Source: Cryphonectria parasitica EP155 (taxonomy: Eukaryota > Ascomycota > Sordariomycetes > Diaporthales > Cryphonectriaceae). Taken from it: a DNA stretch of 64,000 nucleotides. This document shows positions 47,491 to 57,063 of the stretch, piece by piece. Position numbers and translations under genes: made by a program. The notes below the pieces were generated by a model that saw nothing but the letters and a program-made list of their open reading frames with translations, ran no database searches and was not told where the DNA came from. How positions within the stretch are numbered: position 1 is the stretch's first letter; each line of letters starts with the position of its first letter. The stretch is from NCBI RefSeq assembly GCF_011745365.1, contig NW_024468915.1:2086653-2150652 (forward strand). The letters run 5' to 3'.

Positions 47491-49663
47491 TTAGCACGGT
47501 CCAGAGTCAAATATCTGCTCCATCCACTCTCCCGTCCCAAAGAAGCCATAAGCAGGCATTTCAAATAACACAGGTGCAGGAACAATGCGATTCCGGTGAT
47601 CTTCTGCCATCCCATCTTCTGATGCATCACCGCTGCCAATGGTCTCCTGTTCCGAAGTCAAGCTTGCTAGCATTCCTTCCCGAAAGCCCTGCAAATTGCG
47701 CAGCATTTTCTTAAACAGGTCGTCCCCGGCAGTCTCCCCCGCCTCGACACTTGCTTGAGCGGTAACCCCAATGACACAATCAATAATAGCTAACGCATCC
47801 AGGCTTTTTCGCACGGCTTCGAGATCCCGCGCGGTACCGCTCAGCGTAGACAATCTGAACAGGGTCATCAGGCAGCGGCCCACCTGGAGAGTGTACTGGA
47901 TCGACAGACCAACCCAGATAGAGGGCGAAACAGACGTCCAGATCTCAAAGCACGACTTGACGGCCATGGCGGACTGCCAGATCCATTTCAGGCTCTCTGA
48001 ACTGTGCTTGCCGCTTGGTTCGGCGGCATTTTGGGAGGCTTCGGCTGTGGCATCGCAGATACACAACTCTACATAGCGGCTTTGGGCTCGAAGGAGATCT
48101 TGTTTATGTATGCATCCGAGGTCAGCTTGAAAGAAACTCGGTCAAACTAGGGAGGTCAATGTATCCCTTACCAGCTTTTGCCATGCTTGGTGTAATCAAG
48201 GTCTCGACTTGACGTAGCTGTTCACGTATTGCATCGCAGTAGAGGATCAAAGGCGGGGACAAAGGGTCCTGGTGACGGTGGATTTCATGAGCCTTCTGGG
48301 CTAGATGCTGCAGCCGGACCTGTACTACCAGTACTGAATCCGATGGACATGCACCAGCACTTGACTCTAACCTCTGGAGGCAGTCCTCTAGATGAGGCGT
48401 CCAGGGCAAAGATTCCATATGTTTGTAATACGCCGAAACTCTACCAGAGGAAGGCCCAGTTTATCAGCCATGTTTTGTGCAGAAAGGAGCAGTCGGTCAG
48501 GATTCTGACTTAGAGATGGAGAAACTCACGAGGCGCTGAGAAGATAGCAGCCAAGAATAACACGGCTCTTTTCAAGATGCTGTTCCTCATCATTGCCAAT
48601 TGTGTCGAGTTGCTTCATATTTTGACCCCCCCCACCACCACCACCCTCCTTTTTGAACCCAGGATGATTCACAAGTGTGTGCCCTGTCTTTTGTTTCGGC
48701 ACATTTAGCCCCAGCTCATAAAGAATTGATAGAGCGAGAGTCAAGAGGCGTGAGATGCTTTTCTTGCTGAGGAACGTGTCGTGACTCCACGCCACGAATG
48801 TCAAAACAGCCAGCAATAGGTCGATACTGGAATGACCATCCACGAGGAGCTCCTTGGCTAGAATCCGCTTAAACTCTTCTCCTCTGGCGAGTCTGGTCTT
48901 TGTGGACGGCCTGGCCACCGTGCTAATTGCTAGGAGGAGGAACGGTCGATCCCTGCCAAGTGTCTTGATGGATGTTTGTCGAGGAAGATGAACAAAGGGG
49001 CAGCAAGGGAGCAGTTTGTCGATGAAGCGGCTCAAACAGGCTTGTTTCTCGTGATCCGGAAGGTCAAGAGGACCGCCAATTCTTGCGGGGGACTTATTGG
49101 CGACTGGCGGAAGGGTCAATGATGCCATGTCTTCATCCATCCGATTTCGAATGGTATTATTATCGTCCTCCGAGGCTAAATGACTTGTAGATGTTGATCC
49201 CATTAAGGCTCCTGGCGTGATGTCGGCAATGGAGGGATCTTGCACTTCAGATAAGGCATCATATCTTCTGGCGTAAATTTCCCGCCGCAGTGTAGTTTGC
49301 AGCTCATCCAGTGAATCGGGAGATCGGGTGGCGTTCTTCAGCAATGACATGAGGCTGTCGATCCTCTGTTCAAGATGTGCAACTTTGGAACCGGTGCTTT
49401 GGCTTGTCTGTACTCTGCGGCGACGGATTGCATCAGATGGGATGCACCGTTGACCAAGACGATGGCACCTATTACATCGCATATGAGTATTTTCACACAA
49501 AGTTTTGTGAGCGACATGGCTAAGAGAGAATTTTGGCTTATTGTTGTTACCTTTCACAGGTGCCTCGCTCATCCCGTAGCATACACTTGCATTTTGATTT
49601 ATAACACTGCAAGCACGCTTGACCATATGGGGCTGGCTGCCCTGCCTGTCTGTTGTTGTCCAT
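47491..49663 (-). CDS. Zn2Cys6 transcription factor, four exons, intron inside the zinc cluster
   Basis: Exons (minus) 49551-49663, 48530-49468, 48172-48440 and 47491-48098 give 642 residues; donors GTAACA, GTGAGT and GTAAGG and all phases agree. The first join completes the zinc cluster: Cys17, 20, 27, 36, 39 and 46 with spacing x2-x6-x8-x2-x6; an extra Cys25 lies inside the second gap. The first intron falls between the fourth and fifth zinc Cys. A basic segment (AIRRRRVQ) and a likely coiled coil (VAHLEQRIDSLMSLLK) follow, then a fungal MHR-type middle region with WSHDTFLSKKSIS and the segment YYKHMESLPWTPHLEDCLQRL usual in this class. A (ACC)n repeat encodes a Gly run near 48629-48649. 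It is a nuclear regulator. It lies 426 bp downstream of the DyP-radical enzyme gene in the same orientation, so it is the obvious candidate regulator of that block. Confidence 0.9.
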
Positions 49664-50088
49664 ATAAGACTTTAGCTGATAAGAATTATGATGTGTTGAT
49701 ATCTATGACGGACATTGAGTATTGATCAGGATGACTGCAGGGCTTAGTAGTGATTCAATGGCACTACTTCGTGGCCGGAATTGGAGGCACCTAAATACGA
49801 CATTTGCTGTGCACAAATGCCCGGATTTCAGACTCTCCGAAATCCGCCACCAAACCGCGCTCTTACAGGACTTAACGGATGTATTAGATAAGCCTGTGCC
49901 CCACGAAGTCATGCCTGCCTGCATTCCTCAATTATTCCTGCGTGTCTCGCAACAACCACAACCACATGAGAAATCGTGAACAAATCACCATCTGATGGTG
50001 TGCCATGTAAAAAAGAGAGAGAGAGAGGGAAACTACTCAAATAGTTGTACTTCCAATTCCACGATCCCCTTGATCTACCCATCATCAC

Positions 50089-53000
50089 TTAATGCGTAAA
50101 GTACTGCCTTCTCTGCTGCTGTTTCTGATGCTCGGGAAACATGGTGGCGTAGAACTCGGTCCAGCCTCCCATTCTCACACGAATCAAGTTGTACTTCTCA
50201 GGGTCCCTCGAAGCAGCTGCATAAGTAGAGAGATCGGCACATGTGAGTGAGATCAAATTCCCGCCAACATCACCTGCGGCAAAGGCCTTGACGAATTGTT
50301 GGAGCTCGTCCAGCGGGAAAGATTCCTGGATGTTCTGGAGGAATGTTTGAATTAGAAAAAACATGTTCATTTTCACCCAACGGCCCTGGGAGACATGATG
50401 TAGTACATAGGCAAGGGGGGAAAAAACAAAGAAAGACATACCATATCGACCGGAGTCGCATTGGAGAGTCCATACTCGGCTGCATGCCCCTTGACGCTCT
50501 TCATAGCCTGGTAGATATTGCGGAAGCGCGGGTTCGGAGGGTTCAGGTCCTGCGGCGCAGGTGCCGGCGACATGTCTGAGGCGAGAGGGCTGCCGTTCCG
50601 CCGTCCATCAGCCGAGGCGCCGCACGCTGCTCCATCACCGACATAGCCCTCGAAGGTGCCGATACCAGGCGTCACCACAAATTCGAAGCCGCCCTCATCA
50701 TCCTTGTAGCGTTCCTTGATGGCATCCAGCTGCGGCTTGAGCGCCGGCGAGGGGTTGTCCTTATCTATGACGCTTGTGCATAGCCTGACAAGTTGGTCCA
50801 TGAGCCATTCGCCCAGGGCGTTGACTTCCTCGTCGCCTCCACCCCATTTGGGGAGAGCAAGAGCGGTATCTCGGAGCTGTTGGAATCGTAGACCATGCTC
50901 GGCTGCGTCAGCAGGTCCCCTGAATTATCAAGCGCGGTGTCAGCATATTTCATCGAAACATGTTCATGTCGTGAGGGTGAAAGAAAGGGACGGTAATTAA
51001 TTGATTGATTTTCCCAACAAATGGGACTTACAACAGCTGATCTTGGAAGGGTTCAACCATGTTGAACCCCCAGTCGTTCATCAGACAGCGCACCAATTCC
51101 TGCAGGGTGGTGATCGCAGTCTCGGGGTCATATACCAGTTTCTTGATGGCGTACAGAGAATCGATTGTGTTGGAGACACCCATGCACATGGGCGCAATGA
51201 GGTGAAAACGGCCACCTCCATCCGTCAGGTCTCGCCCCTTTTCCGAGCACCCGTCGATGACGACCGACAGGAGAGGACTAGGGCAGACGCTGACAAGGTT
51301 CCCATAGTTGCTGAGCATGACGTTGTAACACTGGATGACAAGCCACTCCAGCTGCTTTACAAAGACCTCCTGTAGCTGCTCAAAGGTCTTCATCTCCTTG
51401 GCGGGTGGAGAGCGAAATGTCTGCTTCAGTCCTCGCAGGTAGATTGGTCCCGCGGCGCCATACGTAGCCCCCTGGTTCAGAGTCTGCTCCAGTGCCTGCA
51501 TGAGAGCGACACTCGCAAAGGTGAAGTCGTTGGCCCCAGCAAACATGGGCTCGTAGCAGCCATCTGCGGCATAGTTTCTGGACCACGCACGCGTGACGGT
51601 GCTTCCGGAGTCCAACAGGCCCTGGCAGAGTTTGTCGTCGTTATAGAGCATCGGCTGAGCGCCGCCAGAAAGAAGACACTTGGCTGCCTCGTCCAGAAAT
51701 TCCTGAGGGATGTCCTTGTACGTTCGTAGCGACACCGTGGGCGCATTGACGGGAATCCGTCGTGCAGCCTTCAGAAACAACATGGTGACTGGGTTCGCGC
51801 CGCCCTCGGGCTTTTCATCGTCTGTGAATTTGTAACCACCCACTGTAATCTGCTGCACCCATTGGTTGATTCCTCCGCCCTGAGGAAAGTTACCTCCGAT
51901 CCCACACACTGCACATGTGCCTATATTACAATAATCGTAGATGAAGGCGCGGTCGATAAAAGCGTTCTCGCCAATCTTGATGAAGAGGCAATCAATGATG
52001 TCCTGCGCTTTCTCTGTTGATAGGCTTTCCTTCTCACGCTGCCAAAAGGGCCAGAGGATCTGGTCGAGGCGGCAGAACGAGGTGAGCTCTCCCACGAGAT
52101 GCAAGCAGCAGTGGAACGAGAAAATGAGCTGCACCGCGTCTTGGAAGGTCTCGGGTGGTTGGTTCACCAGACGTCGTAGGCGCGCTGCGTTGTCTTTCAT
52201 ATTCTGCACGTCTTCGGGTGCTTGGCCAGGTAATTGGGTCACCTTGTCGCAGTTCAAAGCCCAATTCTCCAGGTAAGATTGGACGGCGTGCAGTGAGATG
52301 ATGGACGCCTTGTAAAAAGTGGACTGATTTGCATCACCTCCCTTGGCCTCGCGACGGCTCTGGAGGTCGTCGATCAAGCCCTGCACACCCTTCTTAACCA
52401 CGAGATCATAGTCGGGCACAATGTGTCCCATAGAAGCGTGTTCGTTGAGCCCATTCTTGAGCCAGTGTGCGAGTTCCTCATCCTGGTCCAAGTAAGGAAC
52501 GACCTCCTTTCCCCGACCGAGGGTGAAGTCGGGAATTTGCCCAACAATGAGCTCTCTGGCCTCGATGCGCAAGAGGTTGTTCTCTTTCGCAATTGTCGAG
52601 TCTGGTGAAGAGAGGAGGCCAGCCAGGGTGTGGGAGTTGGCGAGGGCCTTGAGCAGTGCCACATCCTTCTCGTGACCTCGAAGAATCTCCTTGTCCTTTG
52701 GATCGAGAAGGATACTCAGATGCGGTAGACGAGGAAAGTTTTGGCGATGAAGCCATCCGTCGCGCCAGTGATTGAAGGCTCTCGCCATGAGCCCAAGGAC
52801 GCGATCACTAGGCGGGTCGCCACCAACGTAATGGTGTTGGCCCATCTGGTGAAGATAGTCCTGCGAGTTGTAGAATAAATAGCCGTTCTTACTCCTGACA
52901 TTCCAATGATCCTCCTCGTAGATATCATCGGGCCCAGAGACGCCGGCAACGCCCAGCTCAGCCGCCGCTGGCACGTACCAGTAACTGCCACCAATGCCCT

Positions 53001-53880
53001 GCACAGTCGCCAGCAAAAGGTCCGCGGCGTGTCCTGCCTGCTTTCCAACAAGGTGCTTCAGCAGCGCCTCGAACCGTTCCTGCTCATTGCAAAAGGCCAC
53101 AAACATGATCCCCTCCTCACGCGCAGAGTACCCGCCGGCTGTCCCATAGGGCATGGCCTGTCGCAGGATTTTCTTCTGGTCGCCGTTGGCGTCTCTCACG
53201 TTGCCTGCGCGGTGGACATGCCCGCGGAGGCCGTGCTGGGATAGGACAGCGCCGTCCACGTTGCGGCCGATCATCTCATCTTGTGCGTCTGCCGTCTGGG
53301 TGGCAATGGCTGGCCAGTCGAACTCGAACTTTTGGCTGAGGCCGAAGCAGGAGCCGGGATAGGGCCCGTCACGGATGAGGATGTCTTCGACGAGGGTGAC
53401 TGGGTCGTTTGGGTTGGTGATGCCATCGACGTAGCGGCCTCCAATGACACGGCTATCTGAACGCTTGCCGCCGATGGTGATGTCAACTTGGCCCGGGCCC
53501 ACGAGTGGTTCGAGATCAGGGAGCAAAGCCGAGACAATCTCTTGAGCCTTCTCGTGGCTTGGGGCTTTAACATAGAGCAGGATGTCGCCTCCCGTGTTGC
53601 GAAACTTGCGAGTGTCGCTGTGCTTGCCGTCCAGGACTTTGGTGCGGATGGGAATATCTCGCCCTGTCCACTTACCCCAGAGCGCAGGGGAGAAGGCTGC
53701 CACAAGGCCGCAATCTTGATGCTTGGAGTTGATGGTATTGTCCAGGTCACGGATCAGACCGGTGATGGCCGTGTGCATTGTGTCATCTTGATGTTTCAAC
53801 TTGATGGTCAGGAGCTGGCCAAAGACTGGCTTTGTGAGTAAACCCTTCTGGGCTCCAAGAAGGGTCTTGTCAAGTGCCAT
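50089..53880 (-). CDS. DyP-type haem peroxidase fused to a glycyl radical enzyme (PFL/GCxE type), three exons
   Basis: Exons (minus) 51032-53880, 50442-50919 and 50089-50334 give 1190 residues. Donors GTAAGT and GTATGT and acceptors TTCAG and TCCAG are good and phases agree. ATG 53880 is the only in-frame ATG before the conserved start. Residues ~1-330 are a DyP peroxidase: GGRYVDGITNP with Asp152 (the GxxDG motif), GHVHRAGN with His221 as expected haem ligand, and ILRQAMPYG with Arg240. Residues ~370-1190 are a glycyl radical enzyme: GHIVPDYDLVVKKG, NQPPETFQDAVQL, the thiyl/base pair in AADGCYEPM (Cys775, Glu777), TPGIGTFEGY, GASADGRRNGSPLASDMSP and the C-terminal radical loop RVRMGGWTEF with Gly1166. 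No signal peptide or peroxisomal tail, so probably cytosolic. The reaction is unknown; Cys-x-Glu is shared by dehydratase- and lyase-type members. No radical-SAM activase is in this window. Confidence 0.93.
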
Positions 53881-53970
53881 AGTTGGTTTCGCGCTGTACT
53901 TCTTTGGCAACTCTTGTTCTATTTTTCTTCTCCTTCCCAAGTCTATTTATTGGCCTGCCACCGTAATGGC

Positions 53971-55246: not shown

Positions 55247-57063
55247 CTACTCGTCTCCAAACCACCATGACAAAAGGCTCTTCAAAGATTTCGCATTATC
55301 CTCTGATTGACTTCCTTCTAGTGCAACCCAGGCCACTCTCAAGTCAGGACGGACCAAAAAGGCTTGTACACCCTGCCATCTGTCTCCCACCGGCTCAACA
55401 TGCTTTTCAAGCAGCTTGATCTTGTCGCTGTGTGGAGTTGACAAGAGACGAGCCGCAAGCGTTTTTTTGCTCTCAAGTTCATCAATCGACCCACCTACAA
55501 ACGCGAGGACGAAGACATTTTTCCTTGCCGCTTCAAGTATATCAGGTGCATGCTCATCGGAAACATGCGTCAGCCGAGTTCCCACCAGCCTGTGTCTTGT
55601 CTGTGGGCCCTCATCGCCCAGATGATACGGCTCAGTGGGATCATCAAACCCCGTCACGCGCCGAGCCCACAGCCTATTGAAAGTCGGCTGATCAAACGCC
55701 TCCGTGACGAAGTCCACCATTGCCTGCTCCTGTTCAGTGGTGGCGAAGAACAAGGCCATCTGCACCTTGATGTTCTTGATCACAGCCTGCACAGCCGGCC
55801 TGCGCTCCCGCGTGTAGCTGTCCAGGACGCGCTCGACCACCTCCTCTTGGCCCGAGATGCCGCCGCCCACAACGGCGGCGAGCTTCCAGGCCAGGTTAGC
55901 CGCGTCGAGAAGCCCCGTGTTCATCCCCTGCCCTCCAGCGGGGAAGAGCTGGTGTGCCGCGTCTCCGGCAAGAAAAATCCTGCCCCAGCGGTACGTATCA
56001 GCATGATACATGCCGTTTCCCGTGACGGATGACCAGCCCACATCCTGCAGTCCGTAATCTGTGCCGAAACACCTGTCGGCCCACTTCCTGATGAGATCCT
56101 TGTCGGGCGGAGCTGGTCTCTGCACAGGGTCTGTTGCTGCCGAGGGTGGGATGAGCCCCATGTAGCGGACAACACCCGGAGAGATGGTCTGCATGAGCAT
56201 TTTTTCTCCTTGGACCATGGCGGTGCGGATGCCCGGCGTCTTGTCCTGCACCGTGCAGTCTGCCAGCCAGCCGTACCTCGTGGCTTGTGTTCCTGGCCAC
56301 GAGATCCTGGCTGCCTTTCGGACGGCGCTGTGGGTTCCGTCGCAGCCTACCAGCCACGAGGTCTCGACCGTCTCCACGTCGTTGTCGCCGTTGTCGTCGT
56401 TGTTGTCACTGCCATGTCTCTCAAAAATGGCAGAGACAACGTCTGCTTTCTGCTCCAGGCCCACAAACTTGCGGCCCCAGGCGAACGGGATCCCGACTTC
56501 CTCGCATCGCTTTATCAGGACTGCCTCTGTCTTCACCTGTGGGAAAGTGCAGTTAAACGGATATTTCGTCCCCAGCACGTCATAGTTGAGATCTAGAAGT
56601 CGGCGCAAGGCGCCAAAGTGGGCGTTGGGGACCGCAGTGGCGTCTTCTAGGAACCTCGTTGCGATGCCGAGGGTGCGGAAGATCTCGAGTGAGCTTGCGC
56701 TGAAAGTCTAGGAGAAAAAAAAAGTAATTAACAATCTTTCTTTCTCCAGTAAGGTCTACTAAGCCCCTGCAGAGCTACTGAGATTTTTTATTTTATTTTA
56801 TTGTTTTTGGAATGCGTGGCTTGAAGTTCTGAATGCAATTGTTGTGTTGCGGCTTCGTACAGGAATACAAATGTTCAAAAGGGAAGAAGCTAGGTTCGGG
56901 TTGAACCTACCAGACCCTTGGACCAGTTATGCGTAAGATCACGCGAAGGTCTGACGTCGGCCACGAGAATGGCGCTCGCTGGAACACCGGCCTGGTGAAG
57001 AGCCAGGGCAGTGGTGAGACCCACGGGACCTGCGCCGACGATGAGGACTTGTGGTGAAGTCAT
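55247..57063 (-). CDS. Class A FAD-dependent aromatic hydroxylase (phenol hydroxylase-like), two exons
   Basis: Exons (minus) 56911-57063 and 55247-56707 give 537 residues. The donor GTAGGT and the acceptor after a long T run (TCCTAG) join WSKGL to TFSASSLEIFRTLGIA, the usual family text. Motifs: GxGxxG at residues 10-15 (LIVGAGPVGL), DGTHSAVRKA (the FAD/NADPH DG motif), and GRIFLAGDAAHQLFPAGGQGMN (the GD motif, in two parts here). The C-terminal ~150 residues (NVFVLAFVGG, FLVRPDLRVAWVAL) look like the thioredoxin-like domain of phenol-hydroxylase relatives. Expected reaction: NAD(P)H- and O2-dependent hydroxylation of an aromatic or polyketide substrate, cytosolic. It lies upstream, in the same orientation, of the DyP-glycyl radical gene. 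Confidence 0.93.

Follow-up and report, generated by a model that had tools for sequence, protein, structure and literature searches.

A DyP peroxidase fused to, or encoded beside, a glycyl radical enzyme in bacteria and ascomycetes: a candidate for glycyl radical formation started by peroxide

We analysed a stretch of 64,000 nucleotides from the genome of the ascomycete Cryphonectria parasitica EP155 (NCBI RefSeq assembly GCF_011745365.1, contig NW_024468915.1, positions 2,086,653 to 2,150,652 of the forward strand; henceforth the window), and in particular one spliced minus-strand gene whose predicted product of 1190 residues joins a DyP haem peroxidase (residues ~5–311) to the barrel of a glycyl radical enzyme (GRE; residues ~350–1190). 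An original prediction, made from the letters of the window alone, had proposed that both domains belong to a single gene, and this is borne out: one open reading frame of 970 amino acids (51028–53940) contains exon 1 and runs unbroken across both domains, the predicted protein has the same sequence as public protein P0001 from this strain, and homologues exist in bacteria. The exon structure also stands: removal of two GT-AG introns (Table 1) leaves exactly 1190 codons and a stop, and both splice joints are continuous when aligned with bacterial homologues. We considered a splicing or assembly artefact and ruled it out on the single open frame, the identical public protein and the intronless fused homologues of bacteria. 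We henceforth refer to the pair of domains, whether fused or encoded by adjacent genes, as DyP-GRE.

Table 1. Features of the DyP-GRE gene, in positions of the window.
Feature	Position	Strand	Remark
DyP-GRE gene, start to stop codon	50089..53880	-	1190 aa; identical to P0001
Exon 1, residues 1-949 and part of 950	51032..53880	-	
Intron 1, GT-AG, 112 bases	50920..51031	-	junction backed by bacterial homologues
Exon 2	50442..50919	-	
Intron 2, GT-AG, 107 bases	50335..50441	-	junction backed by bacterial homologues
Exon 3, glycyl loop RVRMGGW and stop codon	50089..50334	-	
DyP peroxidase domain, residues 5-311 (model); D152, H221, R240	52948..53868	-	
Inter-domain segment, residues 312-349	52834..52947	-	within Trp/Tyr-rich 291-380
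Glycyl-radical-enzyme barrel, residues 350-1190, introns included	50092..52833	-	
Cys775 codon, expected thiyl-radical Cys in C-x-E	51556..51558	-	invariant in 79/79 fused, 12/12 unfused
Gly1166 codon, expected glycyl radical	50164..50166	-	invariant in 79/79 fused, 12/12 unfused

The expected co-occurrence of the two domains was evident on this one protein, which scores 353.7 bits against Pfam PFL-like and 70.6 bits against Dyp_perox_C, and was modelled whole with AlphaFold (mean pLDDT 91.2, pTM 0.93). It has the GRE barrel fold next to a domain that agrees with DyP in both fold and family model. All six residues previously named as catalytic candidates (Asp152, His221, Arg240, Cys775, Glu777 and Gly1166) are present. 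Across 79 aligned fused proteins, Cys775, Glu777, Gly1166, Trp1167 and His221 are constant and Arg240 is kept in 78, while Asp152 is retained in 66 and replaced by Glu in 12 and by His in 1. The C-x-E motif and RVRMGGW are retained in all 12 unfused GREs aligned, and the Asp, His and Arg of the peroxidase in all 13 separate DyPs aligned, most of which have an extended insertion close to this His. Judged from these alignments, both active sites look intact.

The claim that the radical domain is complete was upheld in one respect, i.e., Cys, Glu and Gly are in place by alignment, and qualified in another, as the Pfam Gly_radical model (PF01228) did not reach its cut-off of 22.2 in the six proteins tested (no match in four fused proteins; 15.5 and 14.3 bits in two unfused ones), though it gave 120.2 bits on an ordinary pyruvate formate-lyase (PFL) of Andreprevotia. 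From its sequence, the C-terminal glycyl loop of the family is a divergent form. Its RVRMGGW aligns with the RVAG(Y) of solved GREs, with the Gly and the Trp invariant, and we assign the glycyl radical position to Gly1166 because of this alignment and because the residue is spanned by the match to TIGR01774. The latter is the best GRE model in NCBIfam and scores 196.1, below its cut-off of 678.2, meaning that the protein is not a PFL proper. The active-site motif is C-Y-E, whereas PFL has a Cys-Cys pair at its active site.

The nearest solved folds are glycerol dehydratase (1r8w/1r9d), propanediol dehydratases (9rco, 5i2g) and choline lyase; the solved-structure match lists contain no structure of the whole fusion. 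His486 of the fusion aligns with His164 of glycerol dehydratase, and we take the roles of the dehydratase positions matched to His486 and Glu777 to be those usually ascribed to them. The family differs from B12-independent glycerol dehydratase in that His281/Ser282 become Glu/Leu in the consensus of the alignment and in its glycyl loop. Glycerol and propanediol dehydratases are anaerobic enzymes with a dedicated activase of the radical S-adenosylmethionine (radical-SAM) family. A CutC-like choline lyase, although among the closest folds, was rejected: what we take to be the choline-site positions are not kept around the Cys loop. On the peroxidase side, the relatives are DyPs of the DtpB/YfeX kind. 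The present ones differ from these in their GRE partner, whether fused or encoded alongside, and in the replacement of the distal Asp noted above.

We then examined how the two domains are arranged in bacteria. A scan of bacterial and archaeal genomes, with one genome per species, yielded 49 loci, and in 45 of them a DyP lies at the GRE, either fused to it or encoded by the gene that directly follows an unfused GRE (DyP presence was assessed by six-frame searches besides calling of open reading frames). The fused form, in which the match to the query runs through from the DyP part, accounts for 30 loci, of which L023 and L055 have broken frames. At 13 loci the GRE visibly starts without a DyP and measures ~835–890 aa where complete; here a DyP gene lies directly downstream in 12 cases, the thirteenth (L045) ending at a contig end. 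The order in unfused loci is thus GRE then DyP, opposite to that of the fusion, and in the 11 loci with spacing listed the DyP frame has a Met codon between 10 bases upstream and 40 bases downstream of where the GRE stop codon ends. The other six loci are cut or fragmentary (L041, L050, L051, L053, L054 and L056): in L051 and L053 the GRE is cut at its start and a DyP gene follows directly, and L050 is a fragment of a fused copy with a DyP piece just before the GRE piece. Of the four loci without a DyP, three (L041, L045 and L054) are cut off by contig ends, and the fourth, L056, is a remnant of doubtful status. In each of five genomes in which DyP matches were counted (Cryphonectria, Paracidovorax anthurii, Flavobacterium noncentrifugens, Sphingomonas deserti and Haloferula luteola), the GRE-linked DyP was the only one. 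Separately, we noted broken or fragmentary copies in L023, L050, L055 and L056, which come from Kordia, an Acidobacteriota metagenome-assembled genome (MAG), Saccharopolyspora spinosa and Saccharothrix.

A homologue search with the fungal protein gave 307 proteins at E ≤ 0.001, and the best 120 of these were listed, many without a source name. The first 101 of the 120 cover 94–100% of the query at 56–100% identity. The fungal sources named among the matches listed include Cryphonectria, Coniella, Chaetomium, relatives of Fusarium and Xylaria, and Lindgomyces, and the named sources also include fungi which we take to be lichen-forming; bacterial sources include Andreprevotia, Janthinobacterium, Collimonas, Chromobacterium, Massilia and Chloroflexia. 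The fusion is not peculiar to this ascomycete. In a GRE tree of 92 sequences (79 fused, 12 unfused and a PFL outgroup on a very long branch; built by a quick method with no bootstrap, 26 rows having no group), the fungal rows with a name, 27 in all, come together in one group (SH-aLRT 100) inside the bacterial fused proteins, and a separate group (SH-aLRT 99) is made up of the 12 unfused rows. From this topology, the ascomycete DyP-GRE most likely came from bacteria, and a single transfer would be the simplest reading. It agrees with that of Zamocky et al. (PMC5041501). We also considered a viral origin and rejected it, as none of 46 short-pattern matches in viral contigs encodes a relative.

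A GRE activase could seldom be recognised. We searched 46 genomes, representing 46 of the 49 loci (L051, L053 and L054 excluded, the doubtful L056 included), with the profile TIGR02494. It exceeded 120 bits in three genomes, the next best score being 48 bits, and only Chromobacterium alticapitis passed the curated cut-off, both Andreprevotia genomes scoring ~128 bits. In the two of these three genomes that were examined, the activase adjoins an ordinary PFL gene, and the activase/PFL genes of Chromobacterium lie ~8 kb from DyP-GRE. In a control of 14 well-known genomes, PFL-like was found in three and TIGR02494 above cut-off in three. Seven of the weak TIGR02494 matches were inspected and, by their motifs, are presumably MoaA-like (three) or AmmeMemoRadiSam-like (four).

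An activase encoded next to the pair was likewise sought. A tblastn search with 19 radical-SAM queries over 942 kb, in which some flanks are short, found no recognised radical-SAM gene immediately beside DyP-GRE at any of the 49 loci. The three matches it gave were rejected as adjacent activases: a PFL activase in L031 lies ~8 kb from DyP-GRE, and L048 has a SPASM-like gene and L018 a MiaB-like one, both within ~2–3.5 kb upstream of the GRE and with another gene in between. General radical-SAM lists were made for four genomes (12–16 matches each, 58 in total). All 27 matches of Paracidovorax anthurii (12; fused) and Sphingomonas deserti (15; unfused) were inspected and no GRE activase was found among them: an NCBIfam scan of 10 gave no match to a GRE-activase model at 1e-8, and the other 17 are, by motifs as we know them, presumably MoaA, MiaB, RimO, MtaB, LipA, BioB, HemN, HemW, RlmN and PA0069-like proteins. 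For Actinoalloteichus and Flavobacterium, 16 of the 31 matches were viewed by motif.

In Cryphonectria itself we found six radical-SAM matches, five of which resemble, by eye, MoaA, lipoyl synthase, BioB, TYW1 and ELP3, while the sixth is a PflX-like protein with weak scores against activase models. Its gene (L006; contig C3, ~3.89 Mb) is very conserved in ascomycetes, the homologues among the 120 matches listed being 67–92% identical. These include Neurospora, Colletotrichum, Diaporthe, Trichoderma and Beauveria, genera that are not named among the best 120 of the 307 fusion matches, and among the 46 bacterial genomes tested a PflX-like protein occurs in one, Candidatus Scalindua. The wider comparison thus does not support a dedicated partnership of the PflX-like protein with DyP-GRE, though a helper role in fungi is possible. 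We infer that this protein belongs to the same family as the putative PFL activase noted by Zamocky et al.

That the fusion is uncharacterised, as originally supposed, holds for its biochemistry, of which we found no account in the open-licence full-text literature (subscription papers lie largely outside it), and not for its existence, which is already in print. The study of Zamocky et al. 2016 (PMC5041501) describes a DyP_B-PFL fusion of the same architecture in Chaetomium cochliodes and C. globosum, likewise uncharacterised there and attributed to the same transfer from proteobacteria, cites Strittmatter et al. 2014 (its reference 38) for the fusion in other genomes, and treats a putative PFL activase gene as the missing component. 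It also reports that after 30 minutes the Chaetomium fusion gene had risen 3-fold with 5 mM H2O2 and 18.5-fold with 5 mM peroxyacetic acid. Relative to that study, the present comparison adds unfused GRE-DyP operons and gives no support for a dedicated activase partnership. New here are the presence of DyP at the GRE in 45 of 49 loci in two arrangements, the invariant Cys and Gly, the rarity of recognisable activases and the distribution of the PflX-like protein.

Several explanations of this linkage can be weighed. The one we favour, tentatively and at somewhat less than even likelihood, is that the DyP uses H2O2 to make a radical that activates the GRE, so that the radical-SAM activase has been replaced. 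We arrive at it because the GRE is conserved, an activase is rarely recognisable, the tie to a haem peroxidase is close, and the hosts are mostly air-living (the bacterial ones being, we presume, mostly aerobic). The suggestion in the original prediction of an activation different from radical-SAM chemistry is accordingly the idea that the comparative evidence, i.e., rare activases and DyP-GRE linkage, favours; its two other ideas, protection of the radical domain and the handing over of a substrate, we consider less probable. In established DyP chemistry, compound I is followed by a protein radical on Trp or Tyr. In the proposed mechanism, peroxide and the DyP haem would give compound I and such a radical, and the oxidising hole would cross the aromatic-rich joint between the domains to the C-terminal loop, creating the radical on Gly1166 or, first, a thiyl on Cys775. 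Cys775 would then take a hydrogen atom from its substrate, a small oxygenated compound bound in a pocket like that of the glycerol and propanediol dehydratases, where Glu777 and His486 would match the Glu and His of those enzymes. Haem loading, compound I, radical transfer, catalysis and substrate class are all what we infer for this protein. The joint itself may suit hole transfer, to judge by composition: conserved Trp/Tyr number 6.7 per 100 in residues 291–380, against 1.0–1.2 in the other three segments.

The DyP would then stand in for the activase, a role comparable to that of the subunit which generates the radical in class I ribonucleotide reductase. This is a likeness only, in which (as we understand that enzyme) a radical made by an oxidant in one protein passes to a Cys within a ten-stranded barrel; the radical generator is a different one, the glycine loop is kept here and no nucleotide chemistry is indicated. 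About as tentatively as for the activation step, we regard DyP-GRE, which is spread across several bacterial phyla and most likely moved from bacteria into ascomycetes, as a two-domain radical enzyme. A wider formulation, which we put forward as a rather speculative possibility, is a GRE family working in air, activated by a haem peroxidase and peroxide without a radical-SAM enzyme or S-adenosylmethionine, both fused and operonic in bacteria and passed on to ascomycetes. To our knowledge, GREs known so far are anaerobic and all need a radical-SAM activase. Activation by DyP would, if true, mean GRE chemistry in air and a tie between GREs and the logic of class I ribonucleotide reductase. With the radical residues kept, a DyP fused to or beside the GRE in every locus long enough to tell, save one doubtful remnant, and an activase mostly unrecognisable, a glycyl radical started by a peroxidase becomes a direct question for the bench.

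A number of points weigh against activation by DyP. Every GRE activation known to us depends on a radical-SAM enzyme, and O2 cleaves glycyl radicals. The general radical-SAM family has several members in every genome searched, so an unrecognised or shared activase is possible, and many of the genomes surveyed are drafts or MAGs, where absence is weaker evidence. Candidatus Scalindua, presumably an anaerobe (hence not all hosts are aerobes), carries the fusion and a PflX-like gene in one genome; Cryphonectria has a PflX-like gene too, and Coniella lustricola, Bombardia bombarda, Xylariales sp. PMI_506, Poronia punctata and Neoarthrinium moseri appear on both the fusion and the PflX-like lists. 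Asp152 is substituted in 13 of the 79 fused proteins, the Trp/Tyr-rich joint may reflect ordinary packing, and electron transfer from haem to glycine would lie beyond what sequence comparison can address.

The fungal co-occurrences just named, and the PflX-like gene in Cryphonectria and many ascomycetes, are what one would expect if a radical-SAM enzyme made the glycyl radical at low oxygen and the DyP guarded it by removing destructive peroxide. The invariant Gly loop fits this as well, and induction by peroxide is compatible with it too. We nevertheless consider such a guard unlikely: it sits poorly with one PflX-like protein in 46 bacterial genomes, with TIGR02494 above 120 bits in only three of the 46, and with the five PflX-bearing genera given above, unnamed among the best 120 fusion matches, and DyP would clear peroxide but not O2, which we take to be the main killer of glycyl radicals. 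A gene of the PflX-like kind was taken as the activase by Zamocky et al. (PMC5041501).

Alternatively, the two domains could act in sequence in one pathway, the GRE making or removing a compound that DyP oxidises, or the reverse, with some other factor activating the GRE. Both gene arrangements of the pair would fit any tight functional link of this sort, and the neighbourhoods hint at a substrate: PLD-like genes lie near the GRE in eight loci (seven unfused ones and the fused L029), and PF04185 phosphoesterases in five fused loci (L011, L017, L022, L023 and L030). We treat the idea of a phospholipid or phosphodiester-derived substrate as a lead only, and tandem catalysis as rather improbable, for it leaves the rarity of activases unexplained and no neighbour family except DyP reaches more than 12 of the 49 loci, the largest cluster being mixed. 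Most improbable of all is that the barrel is a former radical enzyme that now serves the peroxidase as a scaffold or as a partner to bind, for although the Gly_radical result and the family-specific GGW of the loop could be read that way, Cys, Glu and Gly are invariant in fused and unfused proteins from several bacterial phyla and fungi, which counts against a lost function since loss would be expected to free these residues.

Other features of the neighbourhoods recur in few loci. HAD-like genes (labelled by eye) occur in five and cytidine deaminase genes in three; in the unfused L034, L044 and L048 the order is GRE, DyP, then a cytidine deaminase and a HAD-like gene (by eye; in L034 without a Pfam match), with a PLD-like gene next after the HAD-like one in L044, on the opposite strand, and in L048. 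We considered and set aside a defence-system role for the unfused operons: PADLOC recognised neither GRE nor DyP nor the fusion, and matched the PLD-like protein (to DrmC/ZacB) and two neighbours only weakly. Near DyP-GRE, a trypsin-like domain is joined to a non-specific endonuclease at L034:6226-8394 and L026:13743-15737, and to a PLD domain at L037:13881-16670. LodA-like (lysine epsilon oxidase) genes lie near DyP-GRE at L048:5400-6665 and L049:16508-18589, L048 also having the SPASM-like radical-SAM gene.

In the window, the upstream neighbour of the Cryphonectria gene (55250–56707, minus strand) encodes a protein of the FAD-binding aromatic-ring hydroxylase type (PF01494 177.8 bits, Rng_hyd_C 32.8). 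The downstream neighbour (48529–49671, minus strand), which has no Pfam match, has a Cys-rich N-terminus that by eye resembles a fungal transcription factor.

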